Of a DNA stretch of 64,000 nt, positions 3,216 through 34,953 are shown one piece after another. Made by a program: the position numbers and the translations under genes. Each line of letters begins with the position of its first letter. The first letter of the stretch is position 1. This stretch comes from Sulfitobacter sp. OXR-159 (GTDB taxonomy: Bacteria > Pseudomonadota > Alphaproteobacteria > Rhodobacterales > Rhodobacteraceae): the NCBI RefSeq assembly GCF_034377145.1, contig NZ_CP139710.1, forward strand, positions 111,245 through 175,244. The letters are read 5' to 3'. Below the pieces are notes generated by a model. The model ran no database searches and was not told where the DNA came from. It was given only the letters and a program-made list of their open reading frames with translations.

Positions 3216-4310
3216 TTACGTCGCCACCAGTGAATAGCTGGTGCTACGCCCACCTGCCTCATCTTTCTCCAAGGCTCCCAAGTCGATCAGATCAAGAATG
3301 TCGCGATAGGCTGTGTCTTGTGAGCACTTTTCGATCTTCGCATATTTCGACGTGGTGAGTTTTCCTTCGAACCCATCCAAAAGGCGATTGACCATGTCCC
3401 GCTGCCGGTCGTTCATGTTCGACGCTCCATATTCCTCCCAGAACCGCGCCTTCCGGAACACGGTTTCCAGGATGATCTGGGCACCATCAAACGCGCGATC
3501 GAGGCAAGCCAGGAACCAAACGAGCCACGCCGTCACATCAAGCTCTCCTTTCTGTGTTGTCTCGAGCATATCGTAATAGGCGCTGCGCTCTTGTCGAATT
3601 TGCGTCGACATACTGTAGAACCGCTGTGAACTGCCTTCGGATCGCGCCAACGCCATATCCGCGATCGCGCGAGCGATGCGGCCGTTGCCATCATCGAAAG
3701 GATGGATAGTGACGAACCAAAGATGGGCAATTGCGGCATGGATGACTGGGTCGGTGTCGGGTGTTTGATTGAACCAAGTCAGGAAGCGCTGCATCTCAGG
3801 GTCTAGTCTTTGGGCGTCTGGCGCCTCAAAATGCACGCGTTCGCGGCCATAGGGTCCTGACACAACCTCCATCGGACCGTTGCGCCAATTTCCCACCCTG
3901 ATACGGGTCATTCCGCTTCGCCCGGTCGGAAAGAGAGCCGCATGCCAGCCGAACAGACGCTCCGCGTCCAGTGGCTGGTCATACGCTTGGGTCGCGTCCA
4001 GCATCATCTCAACGACACCATCAAGATGGCGATCGGTTGGGATCAGTCCGCCGATTTCGAGCCCGAGCCGCTTCGCGATGGACGAGCGGACCTGATCCTT
4101 GTCGAGCGTTTCCCCCTCGATCTCGCTGCTTTTAACGACATCACTGGTCAGTGTTCTGAGCATCGCCTCGTTACGAAGATCGAAGCCAAGACCCTCCATG
4201 CGCCCCAAAAGCTTACCTTGGCGGTGACGGACCGCAACAAGTTGTGACGACAGCTTGGCCTTATCCCAGATAAACTGCGGCCAGTCATGAAGTTCGTGGA
4301 TGTAAGTCAT
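3216..4310 (-). CDS. Fic family protein (AMPylating enzyme, self-inhibited class)
   Basis: A 364-aa Fic protein. The catalytic motif HPFDDGNGRIAR at residues 203-214 matches HxFx(D/E)GNGRxxR completely, including the catalytic His and the phosphate-binding Gly-Asn-Gly. The inhibitory helix motif (S/T)xxxE(G/N) is present in the N-terminal part as SSEIEG (S61, E65, G66), so this is a class II protein that blocks its own active site. The C-terminal part (KLTTSKYAKIEKCSQDTAYRDI) reads as a winged-helix DNA-binding domain, as is usual for this architecture. Fic enzymes transfer AMP from ATP to hydroxyl groups of target proteins; the target here is unknown. The 117 bp upstream contain GCGGAG/CTCCGC arms and further copies of GCGGAGA, which could be an autoregulatory operator (inference). 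The gene is separate from the recombinase genes upstream. Confidence 0.88.
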   Translation of the reverse strand: MTYIHELHDWPQFIWDKAKLSSQLVAVRHRQGKLLGRMEGLGFDLRNEAMLRTLTSDVVKSSEIEGETLDKDQVRSSIAKRLGLEIGGLIPTDRHLDGVVEMMLDATQAYDQPLDAERLFGWHAALFPTGRSGMTRIRVGNWRNGPMEVVSGPYGRERVHFEAPDAQRLDPEMQRFLTWFNQTPDTDPVIHAAIAHLWFVTIHPFDDGNGRIARAIADMALARSEGSSQRFYSMSTQIRQERSAYYDMLETTQKGELDVTAWLVWFLACLDRAFDGAQIILETVFRKARFWEEYGASNMNDRQRDMVNRLLDGFEGKLTTSKYAKIEKCSQDTAYRDILDLIDLGALEKDEAGGRSTSYSLVAT

Positions 4311-15850: not shown

Positions 15851-16447
15851 CTATGACCCGCCATCCAGACCTGCGTCCTCCAACTGCTCCCGTTCTGGCA
15901 GATCCGCGAGAGTCTCCAGATCAAATGCGACAAGGAACTGCTCGGTCGTCACAAATGTGTAGGGCGCTCCGCGACGCGGCGATCGTGGCCCCGTCCCGAT
16001 CAGGCTGCGCGCATGCAACCGACCGATCAGGTCGCGACTGATCTCCTTGCCGAAGATGTCCTTGAGTCCGTCGCGCGTGATCGGCTGGTGATAGGCGATG
16101 GCGGCCAAGACCGCGACGTCGAACTCGCTCAGGTCTATCAGCTGATCTCCCACATCCGCCGCCGACCGGATCGCGGGCGCATAGGCCGCCCGCGTCCGAA
16201 ACATCCAGCCGCCGGCGACTTGGGCGATCTCAAACGCCCGCCCTTCCAGATCGGCGGCAAGGTCCTTGATCAGCAGGTCAACCGAGGCTCCCTGCCCCAC
16301 CACGCGGGCGAGGCCTTCGCGCGGCACAGGCGCGGCCGAGGCAAAGAGTACCGCCTCGATCCGGCGCATCCATTCCCTCCAACGCAGCTCAGGCGGTAGG
16401 TCGGACAACTCGCGGTCCAGGTCAGGTTCCGGGCGATCCTTCGCCAT
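15851..16447 (-). CDS. scpB: ScpB-like protein (SMC-ScpA-ScpB condensin subunit family), left copy
   Basis: A 198-aa protein of the ScpB family. ScpB normally binds ScpA and SMC as a pair of winged-helix domains in chromosome condensation. Both domains are recognisable: the first from RIEAVLFASAAPVPREGLARVVG to GGWMFRTRA, the second from VAVLAAIAYHQPITRDGLKDIFGKEISRDLIGRLHARSLI to APYTFVTTEQFLVAFDL. The family signature AYHQPITR..I..I.G is present. No SMC or ScpA gene is nearby, so on this plasmid it probably works with the DUF1403 protein encoded 2 bp upstream in the same operon. A second, roughly two-thirds identical copy lies at the other end of the transposon block, also behind DUF1403. 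Confidence 0.88.
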   Translation of the reverse strand: MAKDRPEPDLDRELSDLPPELRWREWMRRIEAVLFASAAPVPREGLARVVGQGASVDLLIKDLAADLEGRAFEIAQVAGGWMFRTRAAYAPAIRSAADVGDQLIDLSEFDVAVLAAIAYHQPITRDGLKDIFGKEISRDLIGRLHARSLIGTGPRSPRRGAPYTFVTTEQFLVAFDLETLADLPEREQLEDAGLDGGS

Positions 16448-16449
16448 CC

Positions 16450-17334
16450 CTACACCCCATAAAGCCTAAAACCATCGCGCCCGGTCAGCTCGCGCACCGC
16501 GCCAAGCGCGACCAGCCGATCGCAAAGCCGCCGCGCGGCGCGGTCCGGCAAAGGCAAGGCCGAAGGCGCCACCGCATCGCGGGTCAGGAACATCTCGACC
16601 GCGTTCCCCGCGCCCTTTGCCCGCAGCTTGGGTGCGACCGCCTTCAAATGCGCCGCCCGGCGCGCGAGGTCGGAAGCTTGCCGCACGGCCTCGACTGCCG
16701 ATGAGATAAGCGCGCGATGACAGGCGAGGCACAGATCCTCTCCCCGCTTCCGCAGGTCGGCGCGCTTCAGGCCTGCGGCCAGCAGCGGCACGAGATGATC
16801 CCAGCCAAGCGCATGAGCGAGGGCTGCGTCAGCGAGGATCAACGCCGCCACGTCAGCGCGCGTCGCGTCCGTCAACACTGCCTCCAGCACCATCGCGGCA
16901 CGGGCTACCGGCGCGCCCTGCCCCGCGTCGAGCCACGTGGCGATCTGGCCCGGCTCGAAGGTCGGCAAGGCTCGACCCAGAACCTTGATCGACATTGGCC
17001 GCTCCCCCCCGCGCCGCCAGGCAAGGTAAGCCTCACCCGCCGGCCCGGGCAGGTCGCCCGGACGCAAAAGATGTACCGCGTCGCGCAACTCGGCCGCCCG
17101 CTCCGGTCTGTCAGAAAACGCGACACAAGCCTCTGCCGCACGCAGCGCGAGCCGGTCCCGCAACAAGGCATGGGGGAGGTCAACTCGGCTCAACACAAGA
17201 TGCAGGTGGTTTAGCGCCGCGCCTGACGAAAACGCAACATCTTCAAGGGTTTCAGAACGCACGGAGGTGACCCAGGCGGGCATCCGGGGTAGTGTATCGA
17301 GGTCGCTGCTGTGATCCGGTCGGGCAAATGTCAT
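16450..17334 (-). CDS. DUF1403 family protein, left copy
   Basis: A 294-aa helical protein of the family DUF1403, known only from alphaproteobacteria and without an assigned function. The start at the ATG giving MTFARPDHSSDLDTLPRMP matches the right-hand copy (MTFANARPLADLDMLMRIP). Typical blocks are PAWVTSVRSETLEDVAFSSGAALNHLH at the N terminus and DRAARRLCDRLVALGAVRELTGRDGFRLYG at the C terminus; the last reads like a winged helix. It forms an operon with scpB (2-bp gap) and points in the same direction as the tniA-tniB-tniQ genes of the transposon that ends 147 bp upstream. An inverted repeat 78 bp before its ATG is a likely operator shared with the transposase operons. Confidence 0.85.
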   Translation of the reverse strand: MTFARPDHSSDLDTLPRMPAWVTSVRSETLEDVAFSSGAALNHLHLVLSRVDLPHALLRDRLALRAAEACVAFSDRPERAAELRDAVHLLRPGDLPGPAGEAYLAWRRGGERPMSIKVLGRALPTFEPGQIATWLDAGQGAPVARAAMVLEAVLTDATRADVAALILADAALAHALGWDHLVPLLAAGLKRADLRKRGEDLCLACHRALISSAVEAVRQASDLARRAAHLKAVAPKLRAKGAGNAVEMFLTRDAVAPSALPLPDRAARRLCDRLVALGAVRELTGRDGFRLYGV

Positions 17335-17411
17335 GCCCAAAGCCTACACTTGCGCGGCGCTTTATTCCAGATAATAGCAAACCAAGCGCCCCGCCTTGCG
17401 GTTCTGTGATA

Positions 17412-17438
17412 TGTCCAATAAGTTTACATTATCGGACC
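17412..17438. promoter_or_regulatory. 27-bp inverted repeat in front of the left DUF1403 gene
   Basis: TGTCCAATAA, a 7-base spacer and TTATCGGACC form an inverted repeat with one mismatch at the end and one C/T difference inside. The same element, with the same distance to the start codon (78 bp), precedes the right DUF1403 gene. One half matches the ATGTCCGATAAT box at the tniA genes of elements A and B. Probable operator (inference). Confidence 0.65.
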
Positions 17439-17480: not shown

Positions 17481-17537
17481 TGTCGAATAGCTGGAATTCA
17501 TGAGATTCAAGCACTTCCCTGAAAACTGAGTCGGGGT

Positions 17538-18557
17538 TCATGAGATTCTGTACCGGTATTTATGAGACTGGATGGGGCGGTATTTGTGAGACTGGCGCTG
17601 TCTCGCGGCTTTTTCTGCAGACTGGCGTGCGGTCTCCTCGCGCTCAGCGCGCCAGAACCGGGCCGCGATGCTTCGTCTTAACGAGAGAGGCCATGACCTA
17701 ACTGCCTGCCGGACCCGTCCCTGCCCCTCCGCATCGCTCACAAGCATGACTGAGATCACCCATTGGACCGGATCCTCAATGATCCGCCCGACGCCGACCG
17801 TCAGCGCGAAACACTGCAACAGCGAGCCCTGCGCCAGGGCGTGGAAACCGGGGCGCACTGCCTTGGCAAGCACTGGCGCCACCTGATCGTATTCGGGGAC
17901 AATGACCGTCAGCGCCTGCCGGAGGATCGGCGTGGTCAGAAAATCATGATAGTCCCGCCGGTCTCTCAGAGTCATTCGTGGCTGCTCGTCGACGTTCGGA
18001 GGCGAGGCGCGGCGATGCCGCGCCGTCAGAATCTGAAGCACTTCGAGCGCTTCCAGGTCTTGCTGCCCCGCACCGCGCGCCCAGGCATCGAGGTAAGTGG
18101 CCCCGGCCTCGGCATGCCCTTCAAGTTTCTTGAAGCAATCCGTACCGAAGCGGTCGGACAGGGTCTCGCCGGTGGCGTCCCGAAATTCCACGCCATGCAC
18201 CGGGCAGCGGAATCGCCACGGCAGCGCTGTGGGTTTGCGTTGCGGTTCTTCGGGACAGTGCGGGCAGTAATACCGGTTCTTCCGCGCGATCATCATGCGC
18301 GCCGCAGCCCCCAACTCCAGGAAAGTCATGGCCTGCACCGCCTCGAGCGCGAGACCGGTGCGGGCCGCAATCAGGGCCCCCTGCCCTTCCGAAAGACGCC
18401 ATTCCAGGTCGAACACGTCGTGCCCCTTTAGACCAAGTGCGGCGACGAATTCCGAAACCGTCATGGCGTAGAACGGGGCCATGCGCGCGGCCCAGGAAGA
18501 CAGCCGTTCGTCCGCCTCGGGGAGGTAGACAACCGGCAGGCGCCCGCGCGCCGTCAC
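17538..18557 (-). CDS. tniQ: TniQ family protein, element A copy 1
   Basis: A 339-aa TniQ/TnsD-type protein, the subunit that guides target choice in Tn7-like and Tn5053-like transposons. The N-terminal ERLSSWAARMAPFYAMTVSEFV block and the zinc-binding region YYCPHCPEE...FRCPVHGVEF (CxxC followed by CxxH) are typical. It starts at a GTG that overlaps the tniB stop codon (GTGA), so the two are translationally coupled. The C terminus is odd: residues RQSHKYRPIQSHKYRYRIS are encoded by the repeated transposase-binding sites at the element's end, so the gene runs into the terminal repeats. The protein differs from copies 2 and 3 at scattered positions. Confidence 0.85.
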   Translation of the reverse strand: MTARGRLPVVYLPEADERLSSWAARMAPFYAMTVSEFVAALGLKGHDVFDLEWRLSEGQGALIAARTGLALEAVQAMTFLELGAAARMMIARKNRYYCPHCPEEPQRKPTALPWRFRCPVHGVEFRDATGETLSDRFGTDCFKKLEGHAEAGATYLDAWARGAGQQDLEALEVLQILTARHRRASPPNVDEQPRMTLRDRRDYHDFLTTPILRQALTVIVPEYDQVAPVLAKAVRPGFHALAQGSLLQCFALTVGVGRIIEDPVQWVISVMLVSDAEGQGRVRQAVRSWPLSLRRSIAARFWRAEREETARQSAEKAARQRQSHKYRPIQSHKYRYRIS

Positions 18558-19432
18558 ACCGGCTCTCCCAGGACCGCCTGCAACCGGTCGCCGCCCAGAA
18601 TGTCACGCGAGAGGATGCGTTCCTCGCCGCTTTCGATGGCGGCGATCGCCAGCTGCGACAAGATCGAAAAGATGCCCGAGGTGATGCCGCCGGTCACCTT
18701 GATCATCCGCGTCAGCGCCTTCTCGTCGATCTGGCTTTGGCGCCGAAGCGGCAGCGTGCGCGCGAGCGTGCTCATCAGCCCATTCAGATCCTCGCCCTCC
18801 CGCCAGGGCGGCAGGGCAAAGGCCTCGAAGCGACGCACCAGCTGATCATCGGTGCGCAGCGCGTTGCGAGCCTGCGCTGTACCGACACAGACCAGCGGGA
18901 TGCGCAGCTCGTTGCCCAGAAAGCGCAGCATGTTCAGGAATCGCGCCTGTTCGCGGATCGTCCCCGCCTGCAGGCTGTGGATCTCGTCGATGACCAGCAT
19001 TCCTGGGCGCAATTCGGCGAGCAGTCGCAAGGCCAGACTTTCAAGTACAGACAGTGTCGCCCGCGGCGGCTCCGGGGCACCAATCGCCGCCAGGATCCGG
19101 CGGTAGAAGCGCGATTCATCTGGCCCAGACACCATCTGCACGGCGACGACCGGCATATGCAGCCGTCCGCTGGTCTCGTCGAAGCTCGATGCGTGATCGC
19201 GGGTGAACTTCTCGATGATCATCGTCTTGCCCATGCCGCTGTCGCCGACAATGAGCAGGTTCGGCATGCGGGCGCGCTCGGGAAACGACATCAGCGTTTC
19301 CAGCTTCTCCAAGGCAGCCTCGGCCCTGGGATAGGAAATCCAGCGGTCGGCGCGAATCCGGTGAATGCGCTCCTCGGCGCTGAGCGCGGCGATCTTGCAC
19401 GCTCCCGGATAGAGATGCGGGAACTCAGTCAT
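18554..19432 (-). CDS. tniB: TniB/TnsC-type AAA ATPase, element A copy 1
   Basis: A 292-aa AAA+ ATPase that regulates the transposase and marks the target DNA. Walker A is GDSGMGKT at residues 63-70, Walker B is MLVIDEIHSLQ at about 142-152, followed by the sensor region IPLVCVGTAQARNALRTDDQLVRRFE with an arginine finger candidate. The start at MTEFPHLYPGA lies inside the end of tniA (8-bp overlap) and matches the other copies; the longer upstream reading is the out-of-frame tail of tniA. The 3' end overlaps tniQ by 4 bp. Confidence 0.9.
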   Translation of the reverse strand: MTEFPHLYPGACKIAALSAEERIHRIRADRWISYPRAEAALEKLETLMSFPERARMPNLLIVGDSGMGKTMIIEKFTRDHASSFDETSGRLHMPVVAVQMVSGPDESRFYRRILAAIGAPEPPRATLSVLESLALRLLAELRPGMLVIDEIHSLQAGTIREQARFLNMLRFLGNELRIPLVCVGTAQARNALRTDDQLVRRFEAFALPPWREGEDLNGLMSTLARTLPLRRQSQIDEKALTRMIKVTGGITSGIFSILSQLAIAAIESGEERILSRDILGGDRLQAVLGEPV

Positions 19433-21071
19433 CGTCGTACCACTCCTCGACCTTGAAGCCGGGGTGGCTGAGGAACGGGCTCCCCTTCCCTTCCGGCGCA
19501 GGCAGGGCATCTCGCGCGGCGGCATCCGGTGTCACATCGATCATCGGCAAAGGGGCCAGATGCGCCCGCCGCGCCTGGTGGCGCCGTATGGCCTTAGTCT
19601 GCCGCTCGGCGCTGTCGACGAGGTCGCGCTGCACCTCGATCGTCCTGAAAATCAGCTCCTCATCTACCGACCGGCGCCCGGCCTCGCGCAAAGCGCGTCG
19701 CGCCGCGCGGTGCTCCCAGAGCGTGATCGCAGGCCGTGTCAGATCCGCCGGTCGGGCTTCGATGATCCCGTTCTCTGTCAGCACGAAGATGCGCGAAAGA
19801 TCGCGCGGATCGTATTTGAGCGTGAACTTGCGGCTTTCCCGGCCCATCAGCCAGCGCAACTCGTCCGCCCAGTAGCGGATGTGGAAGAGGTGCAGGCCGT
19901 CGCGCTGCAAAACTCGCTGCTCGGAGGGCAGGAAATCGACCAGGAACTGCCTGAGATCGGCCGGGATTTGGATCCGGACCTCGTTCGTCCGCGCCGCCCA
20001 AGCCGCTGCAGGTGTCGTTTCCAGCGCGCTGTGGACCCGCGCATGGTAGGAGCCAGTGATCTCGAGAGCGAGCCAGGTTTCCAGCTCTCTGAGCGTCATC
20101 ACCGCCTCGGCTTCCGCGTCGAGATCACCGCGCTCGAAAATATTCGAGAAATGCGAGCCCGGCAGCAGGTGAATCGCGCCCATCATCGTGCCGATCAGGC
20201 GCTCTATATGGCCGCCATAGCGCGGCGTGCCGGGCGGACGGTACTGCAGGTCGATCTGGTATTCGGAACAGGCAAGCTGAAAAGCCCGGGCATGGAACTC
20301 CGCGCCATTGTCCACGTAAATCGCGTTCGGGATGCCCCGCGTTGGCCAGTCTGTGTTGATCCCACGCGCTGCCAGCCAGTGCGATTTCTCCATCACCGCA
20401 TGGGTCAGACACATTGCGGCGGCCAGCAGCGATGGCGGCTCCAGCGACAGATGAAACCCCAAAACCATGCGGGTGTTCACATCGATTGCCACAGTCAGCG
20501 TCGGACGACCGAGCGGGCGACGCGTCACCGGGTCGACCACTGTCACGTCGGCCTTGGTGTGGTCGATCTGGACGATATCGAGAGGGCTGTCTGCAGTAAG
20601 GCCTCCCGGCGTGGCCAGATGGCGTCGCTCGGCCTTGTCCTTGCCTTCACGCCGGGCCATCAGCTTTGCCTGATCGTGCCCCTCCAGCCAGCGACCCAAA
20701 CGCCGGATCGAAGGAGGGGCCAACCCCTGCGCTCGGCAGTCGGCTGCAACCTCGCGCCAGAACCGGGTCTTGGTCGGTTTGCGGCGGGTGGCATAGAAGC
20801 CTTTGAAATGGTGGGTCACGATCGCTTCCACCGCCGGGTCCAGGGGCTGCATGCCCGGTTTGGGCCCTCGGGTATCCCGTAGCAGTGCACTGGTCCGCCC
20901 GTCTTCGCGGAACTGCTTCACCATACGAAAGAGCGTGGATCGGCCGACATTCAACTGACGCATGGCCCAGTCGACATTGCCCTGAGTGAGCTGGGCCGGC
21001 AGTTCCCCGATCACTCGGGCGCGGTACTCGGCCTCTTCCCAATCCTTGTCAACTGGAAAATTATCGGACAT
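19425..21071 (-). CDS. tniA: TniA/TnsB-type DDE transposase, element A copy 1
   Basis: A 548-aa transposase of the Mu/TnsB/TniA group with an rve-type catalytic core. Order of domains: N-terminal helix-turn-helix (WAMRQLNVGRSTLFRMVKQFREDG, 35-58), a second DNA-binding part (KPTKTRFWREVAADC), then the DDE core with D170 in DIVQIDHTKAD, D254 in IYVDNGAEF and E290 in YGGHIERLIG, and a C-terminal beta-barrel (RQFLVDFLPSEQRVLQRDGLHLFHIRYW). It cuts the 3' ends and joins them to target DNA. The start ATG lies inside the shared box ATGTCCGATAAT, so a protein bound there would block translation start and transcription (inference). Confidence 0.93.
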   Translation of the reverse strand: MSDNFPVDKDWEEAEYRARVIGELPAQLTQGNVDWAMRQLNVGRSTLFRMVKQFREDGRTSALLRDTRGPKPGMQPLDPAVEAIVTHHFKGFYATRRKPTKTRFWREVAADCRAQGLAPPSIRRLGRWLEGHDQAKLMARREGKDKAERRHLATPGGLTADSPLDIVQIDHTKADVTVVDPVTRRPLGRPTLTVAIDVNTRMVLGFHLSLEPPSLLAAAMCLTHAVMEKSHWLAARGINTDWPTRGIPNAIYVDNGAEFHARAFQLACSEYQIDLQYRPPGTPRYGGHIERLIGTMMGAIHLLPGSHFSNIFERGDLDAEAEAVMTLRELETWLALEITGSYHARVHSALETTPAAAWAARTNEVRIQIPADLRQFLVDFLPSEQRVLQRDGLHLFHIRYWADELRWLMGRESRKFTLKYDPRDLSRIFVLTENGIIEARPADLTRPAITLWEHRAARRALREAGRRSVDEELIFRTIEVQRDLVDSAERQTKAIRRHQARRAHLAPLPMIDVTPDAAARDALPAPEGKGSPFLSHPGFKVEEWYDDD

Positions 21072-21073
21072 AA
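21059..21073 (-). promoter_or_regulatory. Shared box ATGTCCGATAAT at the tniA start, element A copy 1
   Basis: On the minus strand the tniA start codon is the first triplet of the 12-bp box, preceded by TT. The half-palindromic shape TTAT-N5-ATAA suits a dimeric regulator. The same box occurs at tniA of copies 2 and 3, upstream of tniA in both B elements and in both DUF1403 promoter repeats. Confidence 0.55.
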
Positions 21074-21287
21074 CTTACTCAGTGCATGGATGCCGGATAG
21101 TCCCACCAATGGTGACTCAAATCGGCGTCCAGTCTCACATACCCTGAATCGGTTTCAGAAATGCGACACAGGCAAGCTATTGAAAACAAATGGAACGCAG
21201 TCTCAGAAATTCCGGCAGACCGACAATGTTTGTCGGATGACCGGAATTGATGAGATTCAAGCACTTCCCTGAAAAACGAGTCGGGGT

Positions 21288-22307
21288 TCATGAGATTCTG
21301 TACCGGTATTTATGAGACTGGATGAGTCGATATTTGCGAGACTGGCGCTGTCTCGCGGCTTTTTCGTCAGACTGGCGTACTCTCTCGTCGCGCTGAGCGC
21401 GCCAGAACCGGGCCGAGATGCTTCGCCTCAACGAGAGAGGCCATGGGCTAATCGCCTGCCGGACCCGTCCCTGCCCCTCCGCATCGCTCACGAGCATGAC
21501 TGAGATCGCCCAATTGACCGGATCCTCAATGATCCGCCCGATGCCGACCGTCAGCGCGAAACACTGCAAGAGCGAGCCCTGCGCCAGGGCGTGGAGACCG
21601 GGTCGCACCGGCTTGGCAAGCACTGGCGCCACCTGATCGTATTCGGGAACAACGACCGTCAGCGCCTGTCGGAGGATCGGCGTGGTCAAAAAATCATGAT
21701 AGTCCCGCCGGTCTTCCAGAGACATTCGTGGCTGCTCGCCGACGTTCGGCGGCGAGGCGCGGCGATGCCGTGCCGTCAGAACCTGGAGCACGTCGGGCGC
21801 TTCGAGATCACCCTGCTCCGCGCCGCGCGCCCAGGCATCGAGATGCGCGGCACCGGCCTCGGCATGCCCTTCAAGTTTCTTGAAGCAATCCGTACCGAAG
21901 CGGTCGGACAGGGTCTCGCCGGTGGCGTCCCGAAATTCCACGCCATGCACCGGGCAGCGGAATCGCCACGGCAGCGCTGTGGGTTTGCGTTGCGGTTCTT
22001 CGGGACAGTGCGGGCAGTAATACCGGTTCTTCCGCGCGATCATCATGCGCGCCGCAGCCCCCAACTCCAGGAAAGTCATGGCCTGCACCGCCTCGAGCGC
22101 GAGACCGGTGCGGGCCGCAATCAGGGCCCCCTGCCCTTCCGAAAGACGCCATTCCAGGTCGAACACGTCGTGCCCCTTTAGACCAAGTGCGGCGACAAAC
22201 TCGGCAACCGTCATGGCGTAGAACGGGGCCATGCGCGCGATCCAGGAGGACAGCCGCTCGTCGGTCTCTGGGGAGTATACGACCGGCAGGCGCCCGCCCC
22301 CCGTCAC
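21288..22307 (-). CDS. tniQ: TniQ family protein, element A copy 2
   Basis: A 339-aa target-choice subunit like that of copy 1. The start is the GTG (giving VTGGGRLPVVYSPETDERL) that overlaps the tniB stop codon; a longer upstream reading is the tniB gene in another frame. Zinc-finger cysteines (CPHCPEEP, CPVHG) are intact. The C-terminal RQSRKYRLIQSHKYRYRIS is again encoded by terminal repeat units. It differs from copy 1 mainly in the linker around residue 185 and near the C terminus. Confidence 0.84.
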   Translation of the reverse strand: MTGGGRLPVVYSPETDERLSSWIARMAPFYAMTVAEFVAALGLKGHDVFDLEWRLSEGQGALIAARTGLALEAVQAMTFLELGAAARMMIARKNRYYCPHCPEEPQRKPTALPWRFRCPVHGVEFRDATGETLSDRFGTDCFKKLEGHAEAGAAHLDAWARGAEQGDLEAPDVLQVLTARHRRASPPNVGEQPRMSLEDRRDYHDFLTTPILRQALTVVVPEYDQVAPVLAKPVRPGLHALAQGSLLQCFALTVGIGRIIEDPVNWAISVMLVSDAEGQGRVRQAISPWPLSLRRSISARFWRAQRDERVRQSDEKAARQRQSRKYRLIQSHKYRYRIS

Positions 22308-23182
22308 ACCGGCTCTCCCAGGACAGCCTGTAACCGGTCGCCGCCCAGGATATCGCGCGAGAGGATACGTTCTTCGCCGCTTTCGATGGCGGCGATCGCC
22401 AATTGTGACAAGATCCAAAAGATGCCCGAGGTGATGCCGCCGGTCACCTTGATCATCCGCGTCAGCGCCTTCTCGTCGATCTGGCTTTGGCGCCGAAGCG
22501 GCAGCGTGCGCGCGAGCGTGCTCATCAGCCCATTCAGATCCTCGCCCTCCCGCCAGGGCGGCAGGGCAAAGGCCTCGAAGCGACGCACCAGCTGATCATC
22601 GGTGCGCAGCGCGTTGCGAGCCTGCGCTGTACCGACACAGACCAGCGGGATGCGCAGCTCGTTGCCCAGAAAGCGCAGCATGTTCAGGAAACGCGCCTGT
22701 TCGCGGATCGTCCCCGCCTGCAGACTGTGAATCTCGTCGATCACCAGCATATGAGGGCGCAACTCGGTGAGCAGGCGCAGTGCCAGGCTTTCAAGGACAG
22801 CAAGCGTTGCGCGGGGAGGTTCCGGGGCACCAATTGCAGCCAGAATTCGGCGGTAGAAGCGCGATTCATCAGGCCCAGACACCATCTGCACGGCGACGAC
22901 CGGCATATGCAGCCGTCCGCTGGTCTCGTCGAAGCACGATGCGTGATCGCGGGTGAACTTCTCGATGATCATCGTCTTGCCCATGCCGCTGTCGCCGACA
23001 ATGAGCAGGTTCGGCATGCGGGCGCGCTCGGGAAAGGACATCAGCGTTTCCAGCTTCTCCAAGGCAGCCTCGGCCCTGGGATAGGAAATCCAGCGGTCGG
23101 CGCGAATCCGGTGAATGCGCTCCTCGAAGCTGAGCGCGGCGATCTCGCCAGCCCCCGGATAGAGATGCGGGAACTCAATCAT
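22304..23182 (-). CDS. tniB: TniB/TnsC-type AAA ATPase, element A copy 2
   Basis: A 292-aa ATPase with intact Walker A (GDSGMGKT) and Walker B (MLVIDEIHSLQ). It overlaps tniA by 8 bp and tniQ by 4 bp as in the other copies. A handful of substitutions distinguish it from copy 1 (for instance the segment AGEIAALSFEERIHR in place of CKIAALSAEERIHR); it is identical to copy 3. It should couple ATP binding to target recognition through TniQ. Confidence 0.9.
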   Translation of the reverse strand: MIEFPHLYPGAGEIAALSFEERIHRIRADRWISYPRAEAALEKLETLMSFPERARMPNLLIVGDSGMGKTMIIEKFTRDHASCFDETSGRLHMPVVAVQMVSGPDESRFYRRILAAIGAPEPPRATLAVLESLALRLLTELRPHMLVIDEIHSLQAGTIREQARFLNMLRFLGNELRIPLVCVGTAQARNALRTDDQLVRRFEAFALPPWREGEDLNGLMSTLARTLPLRRQSQIDEKALTRMIKVTGGITSGIFWILSQLAIAAIESGEERILSRDILGGDRLQAVLGEPV

Positions 23183-24821
23183 CCTCGTACCACTCCTCGA
23201 CCTTGAAGCCAGGATGACTGAGGAACGGGCTCCCCTCCCCTTCCGGCGCAGGCAGAGCTTCTGGCGCGGCGATATCCGGTGTCACATCGATCATCGGCAG
23301 AGGGGCGAGATGCGACCGTCGAGCCTGATGGCGCCGTATCGCCTTTGTCTGCCGCTCGGCGCTGTCGACGAGGTCGCGCTGCGCCTCGATCGTCCTGAAA
23401 ATAAGCTCCTCATCTACCGACCGGCGCCCGGCCTCGCGCAAGGCGCGCCGCGCCGCGCAGTGCTCCCAGAGCGTGACCGCAGGCCGTGTCAGATCCGCCG
23501 GTCGGGCTTCGATGATCCCGCCCTCTGTCAGCACGAAGATGCGCGAAAGATCACGCGGGTCGTATTTAAGCGTGAACTTGCGGCTTTCCCGGCCCATCAG
23601 CCAGCGCAACTCGTCCGCCCAGTAGCGGATGTGGAAGAGATGCAGGCCGTCACGCTGCAGGACACGTTGCTCCGAGGGCAGGAAATCGACGAGGAACTGC
23701 CTCAGATCGGCGGGCATGCGGAGTTGGGCCTCTTCCACCCGCGTGGCCCAGACCACTGCAGGTGTGGTTTCCAGCGCGCTATGGACCCGCGCATGGTAGG
23801 AGCCGGTAATTTCCAAGGCGAGCCAGGTTTCCAGTTCATCGAGCGTCATCACCGCCTCGGCTTCAGCGTCGAGGTCGCCGCGATCGAAAATGTTCGAAAA
23901 ATGCGACCCCGGCAGCAGGTGAACCGCGCCCATCACGGTGCCGATCAGCCGCTCGATATGCCCGCCATAGCGCGGCGTACCGGGCGGGCGGTACTGCAGG
24001 TCGATCTGGTATTCGGAACAGGCAAGCTGAAAAGCCCGGGCATGGAACTCCGCGCCATTGTCCACGTAAATCGCGTTCGGGATGCCCCGCGTTGGCCAAT
24101 CCGTGCTGATTCCACGCGCTGTGAGCCAATGCGATTTGTCCATAACCACATGGGTCAAACACAGTGCGACGGCCAGTAGCGATGGCGGCTCCAGCGACAG
24201 GTAAAACCCGAGAACCATGCGGGTATTCACGTCGATCGCGACCGTCAGCGTCGGCCGGCCGAGTGGGCGTCGCGTCACCGGATCTACCACTGTCACGTCA
24301 GCCTTGGTGTGGTCGATCTGGACGATATCCAGCAGATCGCTGGCGACCAGCATCCCAGGCGTGGCCAGATAGCGGCGCTCAGCCTTGTCCTTCCCCTCCC
24401 GCCTGGCCATGAGTTTTGCCTGATCCTTCCGATCCAGCCAGCGGCCAAGGCGTCTGATTGAAGGAGGTGCCAGCCCTTTCGCCTTGCAGTCGGCTGCAAC
24501 CTCGCGCCAGAATCGGGTCTTGGTCGGTTTGCGGCGGGTGGCATAGAACGCCTTGAAATGATGGGTCACGATCTCTTCCACCGCCGGGTTCAGCGGCCGC
24601 ATGCCAGGTTTGGGCCCCCGAGTGTCCGGCAGAAGTGCGCTGGTCCGCCCGTCCTCGCGGAACTGCTTCACCAGACGAAAGAGCGTCGATCGGCTCACAT
24701 TCAACTGGCGCATGGCCCAGTCGACATTGCCTTGAGTGAGCTGGGCCGGCAGCTCAGCGAGCACCCGGGCGCGGTACCCAGCCTCTTCCCAATCCTTGTC
24801 AGTCGAAAAATTATCGGACAT
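23175..24821 (-). CDS. tniA: TniA/TnsB-type DDE transposase, element A copy 2
   Basis: A 548-aa transposase, same domain order and catalytic residues as copy 1 (D in IVQIDHTKAD, D in YVDNGAEF, E in GGHIERLIG), so presumably active. Scattered substitutions compared with copy 1 lie mostly in the N-terminal DNA-binding part and the C-terminal barrel; it is identical to copy 3. Its start codon lies within the ATGTCCGATAAT box at 24809-24823. Confidence 0.93.
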   Translation of the reverse strand: MSDNFSTDKDWEEAGYRARVLAELPAQLTQGNVDWAMRQLNVSRSTLFRLVKQFREDGRTSALLPDTRGPKPGMRPLNPAVEEIVTHHFKAFYATRRKPTKTRFWREVAADCKAKGLAPPSIRRLGRWLDRKDQAKLMARREGKDKAERRYLATPGMLVASDLLDIVQIDHTKADVTVVDPVTRRPLGRPTLTVAIDVNTRMVLGFYLSLEPPSLLAVALCLTHVVMDKSHWLTARGISTDWPTRGIPNAIYVDNGAEFHARAFQLACSEYQIDLQYRPPGTPRYGGHIERLIGTVMGAVHLLPGSHFSNIFDRGDLDAEAEAVMTLDELETWLALEITGSYHARVHSALETTPAVVWATRVEEAQLRMPADLRQFLVDFLPSEQRVLQRDGLHLFHIRYWADELRWLMGRESRKFTLKYDPRDLSRIFVLTEGGIIEARPADLTRPAVTLWEHCAARRALREAGRRSVDEELIFRTIEAQRDLVDSAERQTKAIRRHQARRSHLAPLPMIDVTPDIAAPEALPAPEGEGSPFLSHPGFKVEEWYEDD

Positions 24822-24852
24822 AAGTTACTCAATGCATGGATGCTGGATAGTC

Positions 24853-26025
24853 TCACCAATAGTGACTCAAACCGGCGTCCAGTCTCACATACCCTGAATC
24901 GGTTTCAGAAATGCGACACAGGCAAGCTATTGAAGACAAATGGAACGCAGTCTCAGAAATTCCGGCAGACCGACAGATTCGGCCAAAATCCTCCCTCTCG
25001 TCGAGGAAATTTCCATTTAACCGGTGGACAGGCCTCTTGCTCAATCTGTGGACTCGTTCCGCTCCAGCTTCAACTGCGCGCTTTCCTTTGCCGTTCCGTG
25101 GATCTCGCCCATCCGTGAGCCACGGCAATGGGGCGGCACGCCGGAACAGGACGAGGGCGGCCTCCGGCACGACTGCGCCGGGCACCAGATCTGCTCCAAA
25201 GAGATCATGCAAGATCACCAGCGTCAGAGCCCGCCAGCGCACTGATAGGTGCTGAAGAGGCGCAAGCCGACCGACGGCCGCGCGGGCTTCGTAAGGGCAG
25301 TTCCAGCCCGGTTCATCGTACCAGAGCACAAGGACAGGCCGGGCTGCCCCGTCACGATCAAGCGGTGCCCAGAGGGTGCGAATTGCATGCTCGAGTCGAT
25401 CAAGGCAGCCGGGGCCACCTATGACGATTCCGCTGATCTGGCGTTGGATCTCGAGAACGTTTGCAGCAAAATCTGCCTTCAAAGGGTCCTCTGTCTCCCC
25501 TCCCCCACTGGTCAGAACGGCATCGCACTTATGACAGAAGGGCCGCAGCAGACCATTCAGCATGCGAAAAGAAAGCCTCAGGCCGCTGCGACACGCAGGG
25601 CAGCGATCCAGAAGCATGGTCCGGTGTTCCGGGCAAACCACCTGCTCCGCCAATCGCCAATTCACCCGAAGATAGGCATCGCGACCGGCAGCGACATCCG
25701 CATCGAAACAGGCAAGGCAGACCGGGACTGTCTCGGTCAGAAGCCAGCCCTGCGGCCGACCAGAATATCGGGAAGCCAGTGACCTGCGACGAAGCCGTTC
25801 CGGATCGATCCTGCAGGCCTTCGCCCATAACCTGAGCAGCCCCATGTCCGGCACCACATCGTCAATCTGCCGTGCGCCTGGGTACCTACCCGCCTGCCCC
25901 GCCAGGAACACCATCAGCTCAAAGGGCTCCGCCCCGTAGCGCGCGGCAACCCGCGCCGTCCAAGACGTGAGCAATTCGTCACGGAATGGACGCGGTGCGA
26001 CGGGCAATCTGGCCGGCACCATCAT
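24853..26025 (-). CDS. tniQ: TniQ family protein of element B, C terminus replaced by element A sequence (left copy)
   Basis: A 390-aa reading frame. Residues 1 to about 350 are a TniQ protein (RLPVAPRPFRDELLTSWTARVAARYG at the start; zinc ligands in CLACFDAD, CPEHRTMLLDRCPACRSG and FCHKCDAVL). From about residue 351 (CRSAGISETAFHLSSIACL) the frame runs through the end of element A, so about 40 residues are foreign. The native C terminus is lost. It starts overlapping the tniB stop codon. Whether the chimera still works is unknown; the exact same fusion exists in the right arm. Confidence 0.78.
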   Translation of the reverse strand: MMVPARLPVAPRPFRDELLTSWTARVAARYGAEPFELMVFLAGQAGRYPGARQIDDVVPDMGLLRLWAKACRIDPERLRRRSLASRYSGRPQGWLLTETVPVCLACFDADVAAGRDAYLRVNWRLAEQVVCPEHRTMLLDRCPACRSGLRLSFRMLNGLLRPFCHKCDAVLTSGGGETEDPLKADFAANVLEIQRQISGIVIGGPGCLDRLEHAIRTLWAPLDRDGAARPVLVLWYDEPGWNCPYEARAAVGRLAPLQHLSVRWRALTLVILHDLFGADLVPGAVVPEAALVLFRRAAPLPWLTDGRDPRNGKGKRAVEAGAERVHRLSKRPVHRLNGNFLDEREDFGRICRSAGISETAFHLSSIACLCRISETDSGYVRLDAGLSHYW

Positions 26026-26960
26026 GCCCCGACCCGTTGTTGCACGGGCTTTCCCCGCCGCCGAGCGGTCTGGGTCATCGAGACCAGCGGCAGCACCAGA
26101 TTGTCGCCAAAACTATCCGCGTCGAGGCGCTCCTTGCCCGACCGGACCGCATCTTCTGCCGCCGTCTCGATCAGGCGGAAGATGCGCGCCGTCACACCGG
26201 AGGTCAGCTTGTGAATCCGTTCTCTGGCCTCCCCACTGATCAGAGCGGAGGCCTCGCGCAAAGGCAGGATGCGTTCGAAACTTTTCAAGAGCCCGGCGAA
26301 GGCGGTATCGTTCTGCCAGGGCTTGAGATGGAACGCCTCGAAGCGCTCGGCCAGTTGTGCATCGGTCAGCAACGCCTGGCGCGCGAGGTCAGTCCCTGCA
26401 CAAACCAGCGGGATCCGTAAATCATTGGCCAGAAACCTTATGGCGTTGAGAAATATGCGCTGCTGGCGGAACGTACCAGCGAGCATACCGTTCACCTCGT
26501 CGAGGATGATCATCTTCGCCCCCACGGTCCGTAGCAGCGATCGGCAGATATCCTTCTCGCGGGCGAGCGTACCGCCTGCCATCGCCGGTGCCCCCATGGC
26601 CGCCAGAAGTTCGCGGTACAGATCGCGCTCAATGGGTTCAGAAGGTACCTGCGCGACGACCACCGGACGCTGGTCAACTCCGGTGATCTGGCTGAACTTC
26701 GGCGGGTGGTCGCGTTCAAACTTGCGGACGATCTTGGTCTTGCCCATGCCGGTATCGCCATAGATCAGCAAGCAGGGCATCCGGTCACGCGGCGGATAGG
26801 TCAGCAGGTTCTCCAGACGTGCCAGAGCAACCCCGGACTGATCGAAACCGATCCAGCGGTCGGCCCGGATCCAGGCGATGCGCTCATCATCAGGCAGCGC
26901 CGCGAACCGGCGGTAGGCCGGATCAAGATGTGCAACTGCGCAGCCTTCGGTCACGACCAT
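26022..26960 (-). CDS. tniB: TniB/TnsC-type AAA ATPase of element B (left copy)
   Basis: A 312-aa AAA+ protein, clearly related to but distinct from the element A ATPase. Walker A GDTGMGKT at 68-75, Walker B MIILDEVNGML, then IPLVCAGTDLARQALLTDAQLAERFE. The N terminus overlaps the end of tniA by 10 bp and the C terminus overlaps tniQ by 4 bp, so all three are made from one message. It is intact. Confidence 0.9.
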   Translation of the reverse strand: MVVTEGCAVAHLDPAYRRFAALPDDERIAWIRADRWIGFDQSGVALARLENLLTYPPRDRMPCLLIYGDTGMGKTKIVRKFERDHPPKFSQITGVDQRPVVVAQVPSEPIERDLYRELLAAMGAPAMAGGTLAREKDICRSLLRTVGAKMIILDEVNGMLAGTFRQQRIFLNAIRFLANDLRIPLVCAGTDLARQALLTDAQLAERFEAFHLKPWQNDTAFAGLLKSFERILPLREASALISGEARERIHKLTSGVTARIFRLIETAAEDAVRSGKERLDADSFGDNLVLPLVSMTQTARRRGKPVQQRVGA

Positions 26961-28603
26961 TCCTCAACTTCGAACCCCGGGTGGTCCCTGAGCACATTCT
27001 CACTTTCCTCTGGTTCCGGGACGGCATCCTCAGCCTCGTAGGCCCCTGCCCCATCAAGCGCTCGGTCTCGTCGCTCGAGAAACCGCCTGGCTTCCCGGGT
27101 TCTACTGCTGGCCGCATCAACCAGGGCGCGCTGTTCCTCGATCACTGCGAATATGAGATCTTCGTCCTCGAGCGCGCGCCCGCGCTCGCGCAAAATCGCC
27201 TGCGCACGGCGATGCTCCGCAAGGGTGATCGACGGATGGCGCAGATCTGCAAACCGCACGGGATATCGTTGGCCCTCAGGGCTCCGGACAAAGACCGTGG
27301 AGAGGTCACGAGGATCGTAGAACACGCGCAATTGCCGGCCCTGCCGACCCGCCCAGAGGCTCAGGACATCGTCCCAATACCGCAGGCCGAAAAGATGGAT
27401 GCCATCGCGGCGCACCATGCGTTCCGTGCTCGGCAGAAAGTCGATTCGGAACCCCTCCGGGTCATATGGACGACGCACTGGTGCCTCGCGTCGCCCACAG
27501 GCCTCGTTCCAGGCCGCAACTGGCGGAATCCCGAGCGCACGGTGCCGTTCAGCATGATAACGGGTGATTTCCAGCGCCAACCAGCGCTCCAGCTCGTCGA
27601 GCGTCATCGCCGACTTGCCCACGGAATCGTAGTCACCACGGTCCTTGATGCTGCTGAAGGTCGATCCCGGCAGCAGGTGGACCGCCCCCATCATTGTGCC
27701 GATCAGCCGCTCGATGTGACCGCCGTAATGTGGTGCCCCAATCGGACGGTACTGTAGTGAAATCCCGTGCTCTTCCGCACCCCGCTTCATCGCCTTCGAG
27801 CGGAATTCCTTGGCATTGTCGACGTGAATGGTCTCCGGCAATCCTTCTGCTGGCCAGTCCGCGTCGATCCCCAAGCTTTCCAGCCAGTTGAATTTGGGCT
27901 GCACCAGGTGCTGAATGGCCAGTGCCACCGACAAGGCCGATGGCGGCTCCAGTGTCAGATAGAATCCCGCCACCATGCGGCTTGCGACGTCGATGGCGAG
28001 CGTCAGCCAGGGCCGTTGCAAGGGTTTCCGATGAACCCGGTCCACAACGATGACATCCACCAGCGTGTGGTCGATCTGAACCACCTCATAAGCCCGTTCG
28101 ACCTGATAGCTGCCCGGCACTGGGTGATGGCGCTGGCGAGAAGCCTTAGCGCCCTCACGCACCGCCGTGAGTTCCGCCGGATCGATCGCCGCCACACGGT
28201 CCCGGAGCGTGGTCCAGCACGGGGGACGTAGCCCTCTCTTACTGCACCGCCTGCGCACCTCCTTTTGGAGGGCGTTGATGCTTGGCTTCTGGAGAGACTT
28301 GTAGAAATCCTCGATCGCGCCCGAAATCACCCTTTCGATCTCGTCATGCAGCCGGCGGCTACCCGTCGGTGTCCCGACCTGAGCTGCCAGCAAGGAACTG
28401 GCAACCGGGCGCGTCTTGTACGCTGAGATCAACTCGTACAGGCGGGAGCGCTTTAGACCAAGATCGCGGCAGGCCTTGAGAAACTCGGCACGGTTTGGTG
28501 ACGCCTTGCTTGCAAGGCGACGGATCACAGCTTCCCGCGCGACCGCCTGTTCCCACGCAGCATCGTCGACGGCGTTGATGTCTGATCGATCCACCATGGC
28601 CAA
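26951..28603 (-). CDS. tniA: TniA/TnsB-type DDE transposase of element B (left copy)
   Basis: A 550-aa transposase, distantly related to that of element A. Catalytic residues: D178 in VVQIDHTLVD, D262 in IHVDNAKEF, E298 in YGGHIERLIG. The N terminus has a helix-turn-helix (FLKACRDLGLKRSRLYELISAYK). The C-terminal barrel (FRIDFLPSTERMVRRDGIHLFGLRYW) aligns with that of A. It starts after a 115-bp terminal region carrying the binding repeats and the shared box. Intact and identical to the right copy. Confidence 0.93.
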   Translation of the reverse strand: MAMVDRSDINAVDDAAWEQAVAREAVIRRLASKASPNRAEFLKACRDLGLKRSRLYELISAYKTRPVASSLLAAQVGTPTGSRRLHDEIERVISGAIEDFYKSLQKPSINALQKEVRRRCSKRGLRPPCWTTLRDRVAAIDPAELTAVREGAKASRQRHHPVPGSYQVERAYEVVQIDHTLVDVIVVDRVHRKPLQRPWLTLAIDVASRMVAGFYLTLEPPSALSVALAIQHLVQPKFNWLESLGIDADWPAEGLPETIHVDNAKEFRSKAMKRGAEEHGISLQYRPIGAPHYGGHIERLIGTMMGAVHLLPGSTFSSIKDRGDYDSVGKSAMTLDELERWLALEITRYHAERHRALGIPPVAAWNEACGRREAPVRRPYDPEGFRIDFLPSTERMVRRDGIHLFGLRYWDDVLSLWAGRQGRQLRVFYDPRDLSTVFVRSPEGQRYPVRFADLRHPSITLAEHRRAQAILRERGRALEDEDLIFAVIEEQRALVDAASSRTREARRFLERRDRALDGAGAYEAEDAVPEPEESENVLRDHPGFEVEEWS

Positions 28604-28621
28604 ACCCAGAAAATAGGTGTC

Positions 28622-28637
28622 TTATGTCCGATAATGA
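28622..28637. promoter_or_regulatory. Shared box ATGTCCGATAAT upstream of tniA, element B left copy
   Basis: TTATGTCCGATAATG lies about 20 bp before the tniA ATG, in reverse orientation compared with element A, overlapping the third GTTTCATT unit of the transposon end. It may link transposase binding and promoter control, or be the site of a regulator shared with element A and DUF1403. Confidence 0.55.
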
Positions 28638-28718
28638 AACTATAATCCGGGAATGAAACAGAAACATGAACACAATGATATCAATAAGTTAGTGTCCACC
28701 AATGAAACAAGAACGACA

Positions 28719-28737
28719 TCTTAAATTGAGTGGATCT
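28719..28737. repeat. 19-bp direct repeat, right copy, next to element B
   Basis: TCTTAAATTGAGTGGATCT, identical to the copy at 17462. It continues into TTGGAAAATC, which is probably the original sequence next to the left DUF1403 promoter before A and B inserted. Confidence 0.7.
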
Positions 28738-29600
28738 TTGGAAAATCATGGGCGTAGAACGCGATAAATTGACCTCAGCACGCTCTGATAAGTTTCATGG
28801 GCATCGTCAAGTTATCGGCGTTTCTGGCATCGAAAGCGAGGGCGCTAGATCTTAGGTCGTCATCAACTCACGCGTGATGTCGCCCCAAATTCAGTGGGCC
28901 TCTGCTCTGGTTTGACGATAGGCAGCGGCTGAATGTGTATGGCGGCGCGGACGGAAGATGGTTTGATCCTGATTATGGATGGATAAGAACCGTTGTGCTT
29001 GGCGGGTTGATTTGAACCTACCCATGACCTTTTCTCGTCGTCGGGTGGGACGGTGCGACCCTTCGGATCTGTTGTTGATGCCCTTATGGCTGCGATGCTC
29101 TATTCCCGGGGCAGGCTCCTTCAGGGCGGCCCGTAGCTTTTGAGTTTATCGGTGACGATCACCCGCGCCTCACCAAATGCCTTGAATAATTTACGGAAGA
29201 ACCGAATGACGGCCCGTTTATTGCGCCAGGATTGCACGAGGATGTCCAGCACATTGCCTTTGCTGTCGACGGCGCAGCCCCAGCCGATACTTCTTACCAT
29301 TTATCGGAAGGACGACTTCGGCCAGGTGCCATTTGTCCGCCACCTTAGGTCGACCTCCGCGGATAGCGTTGGCGTATTATAACCCGCACTTCGCAACCCT
29401 AGTGCGGAAAGTCTCGTAGCTGACCACAACACCGCGTGCGGCTAACAGATCCTCAACATCACGCAAACTCATGGGAAATCGATGATAGGTCCAGGCGGCG
29501 TATGCGATAATTTCAGGTTGAAAACGGTGGCCTGAAAAGGCACCAGATTGCTTGGGTTTGGTCATGCGCACGCGTACCGGCATTTGAGATGTCCCCACCG
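28738..29600 (-). pseudogene. Degenerate IS6-family transposase
   Basis: On the minus strand the N-terminal part of an IS6/IS26-type transposase is readable (FQPEIIAYAAWTYHRFPMSLRDVEDLLAARGVVVSYETFR, split here by its own frame end), closely like the intact IS6 gene at the right end of the window. The remaining part down to about 28910 still resembles the family at DNA level but is broken by frame changes and stops. No intact ends were found. The first about 170 bases (to 28909) contain no recognisable gene. The remnant lies between element B and the replicase gene, and is an old insertion. Confidence 0.65.
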
Positions 29601-31979: not shown

Positions 31980-31980
31980 C

Positions 31981-34808: not shown

Positions 34809-34920
34809 GTTTCCCCCGAAAACTCATTAGTATTGAGATGTCGTTCTTGTTTCATTGGTGGACACTAACTTATTGATATCATTGTGTTCATGTTTCTGTT
34901 TCATTCCCGGATTATAGTTT

Positions 34921-34936
34921 CATTATCGGACATAAG
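34921..34936. promoter_or_regulatory. Shared box upstream of tniA, element B right copy
   Basis: CATTATCGGACATAAG, the reverse complement form of ATGTCCGATAAT, about 20 bp before the tniA start; mirror image of the left copy. Confidence 0.55.
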
Positions 34937-34953
34937 ACACCTATTTTCTGGGT

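Follow-up and report, generated by a model that had tools for sequence, protein, structure and literature searches.

Does a DUF1403-scpB gene pair that stands directly behind the tniQ gene of a transposon belong to that transposon, or does it mark the place where the transposon lands? The question is raised by a 64,000-nt stretch of Sulfitobacter sp. OXR-159 (NZ_CP139710.1, positions 111,245-175,244; from here on, the window), in which such pairs lie on both outer sides of a block of tniA-tniB-tniQ elements. We favour a reading in which the pair is part of a plasmid recombination module made up of a tyrosine recombinase gene (int), an inverted repeat, DUF1403 and scpB, in which two kinds of transposon, A and B, land at the repeat, and in which the Int of the target plasmid would resolve the resulting cointegrates. 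The probability that we give to this reading is roughly 0.78.

Transposons and repeats in the window

The features on which the argument draws are the following, with coordinates counted in the window.

15851-16447, minus strand: scpB, left copy (PF04079, E 7.5e-34)
16450-17334, minus strand: DUF1403, left copy, intact (PF07183, E 7.8e-100)
17413-17437, minus strand: left candidate crossover site, GTCCGATAA-TGTAAAC-TTATTGGAC as read on the minus strand (repeat pattern; apparent exchange point in related plasmids)
17481-21225, minus strand: transposon A1, right end 43 bp from the left site; tniA 19425-21071, tniB 18554-19525, tniQ 17538-18557
21231-24975, minus strand: transposon A2, tandem to A1
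24976-28718, minus strand: transposon B, right end cut by A2; tniA 26951-28603, tniB 26022-26960, tniQ 24853-26025 running into A2
29620-30315, minus strand: plasmid replicase with DnaA N-terminal domain (PF11638, E 1.2e-7)
30609-33048, plus strand: partition genes, ParA (30609-31979) and ParB-like (31981-33048)
33711-34808, minus strand: int, Cre-like tyrosine recombinase (PF00589, E 1.8e-15), divergent partner of the right site
34839-38581, plus strand: transposon B'; tniA 34954-36606, tniB 36597-37535, tniQ 37532-38704 running into A3
38582-42326, plus strand: transposon A3, which interrupts the right end of B' and stops 35 bp short of the right site; tniA 38736-40382, tniB 40375-41253, tniQ 41139-42269
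42327-42332: last 6 bp of the B' right end, a remnant 29 bp from the right site
42362-42386, plus strand: right candidate crossover site, spacer TGTAAAC as in the left site, orientation opposite
42465-42600 (end approximate), plus strand: DUF1403 5' fragment, fused to nuoM
49319-49459, plus strand: DUF1403 3' fragment
49456-50070, plus strand: scpB, right copy

Altogether the window holds three copies of element A and two of element B, and the genes recognised in each were tniA, tniB and tniQ (A1 matched the rve/Mu C-terminal, TniB and TniQ domains, and the TniQ domain was found in B). The B-A unit at 34774-42335 and its inverted copy at 21224-28782 are 99.6% identical, and between them lie the DnaA-type replicase, ParA, the ParB-like gene, whose ParB_N match is slightly below the curated cut-off, and int. 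Since the two crossover sites are inverted around this 25-kb block of replicon plus transposons, recombination between them would invert the block.

The arrangement reported for the left side by the first-pass annotation, with DUF1403-scpB directly behind tniQ of A and in the same direction, is confirmed by the PF07183 and PF04079 matches listed above. The right pair does follow tniQ of A, but its DUF1403 is split: only the first ~45 codons are in place, and the last ~46, together with scpB, sit beyond 6.7 kb of other genes on the far side of the 5' fragment joined to nuoM. From the A end to the DUF1403 ATG we counted about 146 bp (left) and 138 bp (right), within one base of the 147 and 139 bp given before, and the two scpB copies are diverged as described (69% DNA identity). 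The adjacency of A and DUF1403-scpB is true of A1 and A3 but not of A2, the tandem copy, which has no DUF1403-scpB of its own. A second element, B, is present in two copies. Int had been overlooked, and so had the 25-bp inverted repeat, which lies upstream of the DUF1403 start on either side.

Some further details of the window were recorded. A 68-codon int-related fragment (33313-33516) lies directly downstream of int on the same strand. The DUF1403-nuoM junction (42465-42948) recurs in plasmid unnamed5 of Sulfitobacter SK025 (L265, 7654-7800), the left flank of which, up to the repeat, differs from the right side of the window, and positions 42327-42361, i.e. the B-end remnant plus its 29-bp flank, recur behind A in plasmid unnamed5 of Sulfitobacter LC.270.F.C4 (L280). 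A 15-nt half of the repeat is present at the tniA start of A (38733-38747) and, inverted, upstream of tniA of B (34922-34936), which may reflect shared regulation or chance. Two Fic-type genes with a motif intact by eye (3216-4310 and 54306-55826) are also carried, and Fic genes were seen behind scpB in related plasmids as well.

A plasmid module built around an inverted repeat

Profile searches found PF07183 in 84 of 394 Rhodobacteraceae genomes and in 4 of 385 genomes drawn from the class Alphaproteobacteria, and DUF1403 was present in 673 of 72,556 PLSDB plasmid records, mostly of roseobacters and rhizobia. We fetched 100 DUF1403 loci with matches over about 130 bits, leaving out weaker fragments. 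ScpB was behind DUF1403 in 98 of them (the exceptions being L127 and L137), at a distance of about 540 bp instead of directly behind in L087 and in broken frames in L073, L097 and L126. DUF1403 and a partial ScpB domain share one 596-aa frame in L101, which is possibly a natural fusion of the two. Upstream and in the opposite direction, int was found in 70 of the 100 loci, and in 57 it was within about 250 bp of the DUF1403 frame; rep/par genes, in gene clusters named by eye and within the available flanking DNA, stood beside 58 of the 70.

Between int and DUF1403 lies the repeat GTCCGATAA-N7-TTATTGGAC, which was found with six or fewer mismatches in 81 of the 100 loci and together with int in 64. 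The other 36, some of which are cut by contig ends, are without int, the repeat or both, and part of them may have another role. Counting the left site of the window, there were 82 sites representing 57 distinct 29-mers, all with a 7-bp spacer that is asymmetric and conserved, and in 75 of the 82 the repeat starts at offset -94 from the DUF1403 frame. With at most two mismatches allowed, the pattern occurs twice in the window and in none of 100 shuffles, and a search of the host genome disclosed no further occurrence elsewhere.

Four plasmids from outside the roseobacter group were inspected. A Ti plasmid and an Afipia plasmid carry the order repABC-int-site-DUF1403-scpB with the same repeat, and an R. 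leguminosarum plasmid (L262) has compensated changes in both repeat arms. In a Mesorhizobium plasmid DUF1403-scpB is behind repC, int is not annotated, and a search for a repeat of this kind found none. Taken together, int, its 25-bp inverted repeat and the DUF1403-scpB pair make up a plasmid module, which is widespread and usually located beside replication genes.

Variants of this layout were also seen. In L081, L087, L104 and L125 int is displaced by about 500-600 bp from the repeat, beside which L087 and L125 still carry the beginning of an int-like frame. A serine-type recombinase gene is behind int in 14 loci (L040, L041, L059, L060, L083, L084, L093, L094, L103, L112, L116, L122, L131 and L139), so that those plasmids carry two recombination systems. 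In D. shibae plasmids this gene is annotated as 'recombinase family protein'.

Tyrosine recombinases have the catalytic set R, K, HxxR, H/W and Y, and the layout of their sites is that found here beside the Cre-like gene, with inverted arms of ~11 bp separated by 7 bp. The closest PDB match of Int (33711-34808) was Cre (2hof, E 1.2e-5), and residues R195, K230, H316-x-x-R319, H339 and Y348, which we take to be the catalytic ones, are conserved in 22 aligned rows, with L138 departing at the tyrosine. The crossover site, with its inverted arms around a 7-bp spacer, matches the 6-8 bp expected for such enzymes. Recombination by Int at the repeat is a candidate activity to which the natural chimeras described below point.

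For DUF1403, a single-chain model predicted a Fic-like fold plus a winged helix. The Fic motif HPFxxGNGR was present in 0 of 82 DUF1403 sequences and a search for a sequence-profile link between DUF1403 and Fic found none, so the relation to Fic is one of predicted structure; a PDB sequence search with DUF1403 gave no useful match. The ScpB domain is present in the partner protein, and no smc or scpA product is listed in the annotated plasmid stretches, the gene tables of which are incomplete. DUF1403 and ScpB are probably accessory architectural proteins of the module.

Natural exchange was scanned over 200 bp on each side of the repeat in all 2926 pairs of 77 loci, and a pair was called chimeric when one side was at least 95% alike and the other at most 80%. 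Nine pairs were chimeric at the repeat and a single one, L118/L119 (two contigs of one genome), was alike on both sides. At 14 control positions within int or DUF1403-scpB (-1000 to -200 and +200 to +1400) there were no chimeric pairs and 6-10 pairs alike on both sides, and at -1200, -100 and +100 the chimeric pairs numbered 2, 1 and 4, the four at +100 being among the nine of the repeat. The chimeric pairs are partly non-independent (L045/L047/L048 and L046/L053/L056/L059). In four right-shared pairs with differing spacers the shared part begins at the right arm, and the left-shared pair L045/L048 is already unlike at the last base of the spacer. Chimeric pairs at the repeat together with none at the 14 controls point to the repeat as a natural crossover site. 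In D. shibae, pDSHI01 and pDSHI03 have identical accessions for DUF1403, ScpB and the genes downstream and differ in int and rep; for these sister plasmids, the part of PMC5513947 consulted describes a plasmid duplication and the recruitment of a new RepABC module.

Landing distance and flanks of the transposons

The right ends of B were located in 21 cases at 28-33 bp from the repeat, 17 of them at exactly 29 bp; three of the 21 (L065, L280 and the right side of the window) are remnants behind an A, and those of SK025 and W027 are at 32-33 bp, not 29. The right ends of A were found in 14 cases at 35-57 bp, 11 of them at 43-48 bp, and the ends at 35 and 57 bp show some play in the landing distance. 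In all the A and B right ends counted, the tniQ end is directed toward the repeat, on the side away from DUF1403. This constancy of distance and orientation lends strong support to the suggestion that insertion is preferred in the promoter region of DUF1403, in the way that Tn5053 prefers res sites, and a fixed landing of A and B beside the repeat is what the positions of these ends indicate. Moreover, a further A can insert into the right end of an existing A or B if that end lies at roughly the usual distance from the repeat, so that the distance to the repeat, and not the local sequence, seems decisive.

These counts come from two samples. The tniA search covered 394 genomes with at most three candidates scored per genome, so that its counts are lower bounds and the B copies of the window's own genome are not listed. 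A-type tniA (at least 85% identity) was found in at least 9 places in the 394 genomes, and all nine listed are at the module: five have the repeat at the expected place (A1 and A3 of the window, L044, L065 and L142), in L074 and L134 the repeat is slightly altered, A2 of the window is tandem to A1, and L143 ends at a contig end, with contig L133 of the same genome opening on an A end that lies 43 bp away from a repeat. Left out of the landing counts were A2 of the window (tandem) and L144 (contig end), which have no adjoining repeat, and weak motif matches with 3-6 mismatches, which look like reversed left ends or chance. From PLSDB we took the best 11 matches of B (nine with query coverage of 80% or more, and two from SK012 that are partial) and five of the six A matches of at least 80%, H204 being left out. 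All 16 sit at a repeat, and behind it no intact DUF1403 is annotated in six (L265, L267, L271, L276, L278 and L280) in the PLSDB gene table, which is incomplete. H207 was also fetched and no A right end was found in it. With the search pattern used, the other tni lineages (L145-L178) had no repeat beside them; copies of further lineages were in or near the module at other places in L092, L127 and L146, and those of L127 and L146 cut into DUF1403 itself.

In the fetched plasmids A measures 3739-3745 bp and B 3755-3775 bp, and no recombinase gene is annotated within either, the genes being tniA, tniB and tniQ or pieces of them, plus hypothetical proteins in the place of tniQ. A plain insertion is expected to have the same 5 bp on both sides. 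Of 13 B copies, 3 showed such duplications in cis; of 5 A copies, none did. Nearly or fully identical B copies were compared in three same-strain pairs, namely Salipiger profundus pTPRO7/pTPRO5 (3765/3765), Pseudohalocynthiibacter pRR4-35_2/_4 (3773/3773) and Sulfitobacter SK012 unnamed3/unnamed1 (3774 matches over 3775, with a one-base length difference). The first plasmid of each pair has a cis duplication (ACCCA, TCGTC and CTGAC, respectively), and the second has a left flank of its own (TTTAA, GCTCA and CCTCG) together with the 29-bp right flank and the repeat of the first. On the right, identity runs on for 0, 3 and 4 bp past the repeat, on the left it ends within 0-1 bp of B, and the 300 bp beyond the repeat are merely 57-66% alike. 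Since the left and right flanks are both on the int side, exchange at the repeat alone cannot separate them, and recombination inside B would have restored the cis duplications. We read the mixed flanks as a footprint of cointegrate resolution at the site that belongs to the target plasmid itself.

Three plasmids of Pseudosulfitobacter DSM 107133 carry an identical A (3745/3745), two of them with a common 47-bp right flank and repeat. The first 5 bp of this shared flank, GTGAA, equal the left-flank 5 bp of the third plasmid, as would be expected of a duplication shared across plasmids. The same-strain footprints come from four strains only, and a third Pseudohalocynthiibacter plasmid (L270) has a different B, with unmatched flanks.

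In a further lineage, C, tniQ faces the end of scpB with the stop codons at most about 30 bp apart, an arrangement found in twelve loci (L046, L053, L055, L056, L059, L060, L065, L072, L096, L103, L118 and L119). In L059, L060, L118 and L119, and in four named plasmids, both TGTCGC ends are in view, each about 100 bp outside the outermost gene, int on one side and tniA on the other; they enclose int, the repeat, DUF1403 and scpB in 6.5-6.6 kb, and at least 80% of the element is present in 51 plasmid records. L059 has kept the flanking duplication. The tniA-side flank is recurrent in 7 of 8 copies and the int-side flank is variable, a pattern expected if halves had been exchanged at the internal repeat. 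The view that DUF1403-ScpB helps the transposon fits this lineage, in which the module is inside, but does not extend to the pair as a general transposon part. In L118 and L119, which are C elements of one genome, one duplication is split, CCGGC being left of one and right of the other. The tniA-side end is repeatedly beside or in one gene (L282 522-1520, L285 510-1520), which suggests a second preferred target; this gene gave a weak PF11972 HTH match in one of the two copies tested.

Weighing of explanations and relation to known systems

According to the reading that we favour, Int would exchange strands within the 7-bp spacer of the repeat, and this exchange would resolve plasmid multimers and also swap replication regions between co-resident plasmids. 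A and B would recognise the crossover site, or the proteins assembled there, and their replicative insertion would take place on the int side of the repeat at a constant distance from it, the junctions of the cointegrate being target-left/B/donor-right and donor-left/B/target-right. With no resolvase gene in A or B, the Int of the target plasmid would resolve the cointegrate at the repeat, whereby the stretch between transposon end and repeat would pass from donor to target; recombination between the two repeats of the cointegrate would leave exactly the second plasmid of a pair. Lineage C would have taken the whole module into itself. The module, the exchange at the repeat, the fixed landing and the footprints are shown by the sequences compared; from these we infer that the exchange is the work of Int, that the site is read by TniQ and that DUF1403 and ScpB have roles beside them. 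An earlier guess that DUF1403-ScpB serves cointegrate resolution is right in so far as resolution appears to occur at the module, but the likely actor is int with its site, and DUF1403-ScpB would be at most helpers. Tentatively, and at somewhat less than even odds, the labour of the cycle may be shared, the DDE transposase making one lasting junction and the target's Int the other, with TniQ reading the complex and the degenerate Fic-fold protein and ScpB being structural.

The first-pass annotation had proposed that DUF1403-scpB is a genuine part of A, i.e. that a five-gene transposon uses the pair in target choice, bridging or resolution. Speaking for it are the constant order and comparable spacing after tniQ in both A and B, and also lineage C with int-DUF1403-scpB between its ends. 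However, tniA genes or fragments are near only 20 of the 100 DUF1403-scpB loci and, in the count proposed at the time, tniA was upstream in the same direction in 8 (17 of the 100 having less than 3 kb of upstream DNA), figures on which the pair was rejected as a general part of transposons. Moreover, each of A and B is closed by end repeats of its own before the site, and different DUF1403 alleles adjoin copies of A, or of B, that are identical. A five-gene transposon is thus very unlikely. The mismatched flanks could also stem from homologous recombination between resident transposon copies plus exchange at the repeat, with ordinary transposition. Within one strain, copies of A or of B can be identical and would then offer RecA a place for a crossover; exchange at the repeat has independent support, and a crossover between two B copies followed by repeat exchange would leave the same flanks. 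Yet all three B pairs share the right flank and none the left, and in each of them one plasmid has perfect cis duplications, which replicative transposition with resolution at the repeat predicts in one step; we consider this second explanation unlikely.

A different doubt concerns the repeat, which might be a mere operator or partition site for int and DUF1403 at which RecA events happened to end. Promoter-like hexamers overlap it on the int side (by eye), and half-sites are present in A, where tniA starts, and in B, upstream of its tniA. Against this stand the lack of chimeric pairs at the 14 other positions in int or DUF1403-scpB, the asymmetric and conserved spacer, and the layout next to a Cre-like gene, with 7 bp between inverted arms of ~11 bp. 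The partition-site version was discarded, the repeat being different from the family's 14-nt RepABC partition palindromes as given in the part of PMC5613091 consulted. We regard an operator with chance chimeras as very unlikely.

The resolvases of the res sites targeted by Tn5053 and Tn402 are of the serine type, whereas the target recombinase of A and B is a PF00589, Cre-like protein. By sequence match, the int module resembles Cre/lox of plasmid P1, a known recombination system with an 8-bp lox spacer, in having a plasmid-borne recombinase of the same family and an inverted-repeat site, but it has a 7-bp spacer, extra conserved partners and is used by transposons. As described in the excerpts of PMC7765201 used here, Tn5053/Tn402 are like A and B in their tniABQ genes and in inserting at a site-specific recombination site in one preferred orientation; they transpose replicatively into plasmid recombination sites with 5-bp duplications and with the involvement of the target-site resolvase. 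These excerpts have them carrying tniR and res and targeting the res sites of resolvases, whereas A and B have no resolvase gene and, unlike transposons with a tniR of their own, have flanks that indicate resolution at the target's site. Set against that description, A and B are a tyrosine-recombinase variant of the Tn5053/Tn402 res-site hunters.

The consulted passages of PMC8649781 attribute tyrosine resolvases to clade 2 and 3 Tn7-like transposons, which lineage C resembles in combining tniABQ with a tyrosine recombinase of its own, and state that resolution in trans could serve elements that have no resolvase; in its account of Tn7-like resolvases, these passages contain no DUF1403-ScpB, module homing or flank footprints of trans resolution. 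The TnpS/TnpT/rst system of Tn4651-type Tn3 elements, as outlined in part of PMC7157771, is like the module in its divergent tyrosine recombinase and helper with a crossover repeat between them. By comparison, the helper here is DUF1403 plus ScpB, the module is mostly without a transposase, and the likeness to TnpT is one of layout. In TnsF/Tn6022 and Tsy (PMC10293859, selected passages) a tyrosine-recombinase-type protein guides a tniQ transposon, which is reminiscent of A, B and C, and recombinases acting in trans as target selectors, to be captured later, are proposed there. TnsF is described in those passages as an inactivated, transposon-encoded recombinase, whereas Int keeps the catalytic residues and belongs to the target (A and B) or to the element (C).

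Each on its own, the hunting for res sites, the use of tyrosine resolvases by Tn7-like elements and the divergent layout of recombinase and helper were already known. As far as the open-licence literature searched shows, int-site-DUF1403-ScpB as a plasmid crossover system is new and, within the same literature, so are the homing of resolvase-less tniABQ elements and the footprints of resolution at the target's site. That literature does not name DUF1403 and gave no match for tniQ with Roseobacter plasmids or for ScpB with a plasmid tyrosine recombinase in Rhizobium.

The footprints would provide flank-level evidence for the trans resolution of Tn7-like cointegrates, a step only proposed in the passages of PMC8649781 consulted, and A, B and C a natural case for the idea, put forward in those of PMC10293859, that tyrosine recombinases act as target selectors of tniQ transposons and are captured later. 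Exchange at the repeat would offer a mechanism for replicon swapping, e.g. for the differing replication regions of the D. shibae sister plasmids. If the cycle of shared labour is true, the mobile unit would reach from the left end of the transposon to the crossover site of the plasmid, and ScpB without an SMC partner would be a condensin subunit reused for site-specific recombination.
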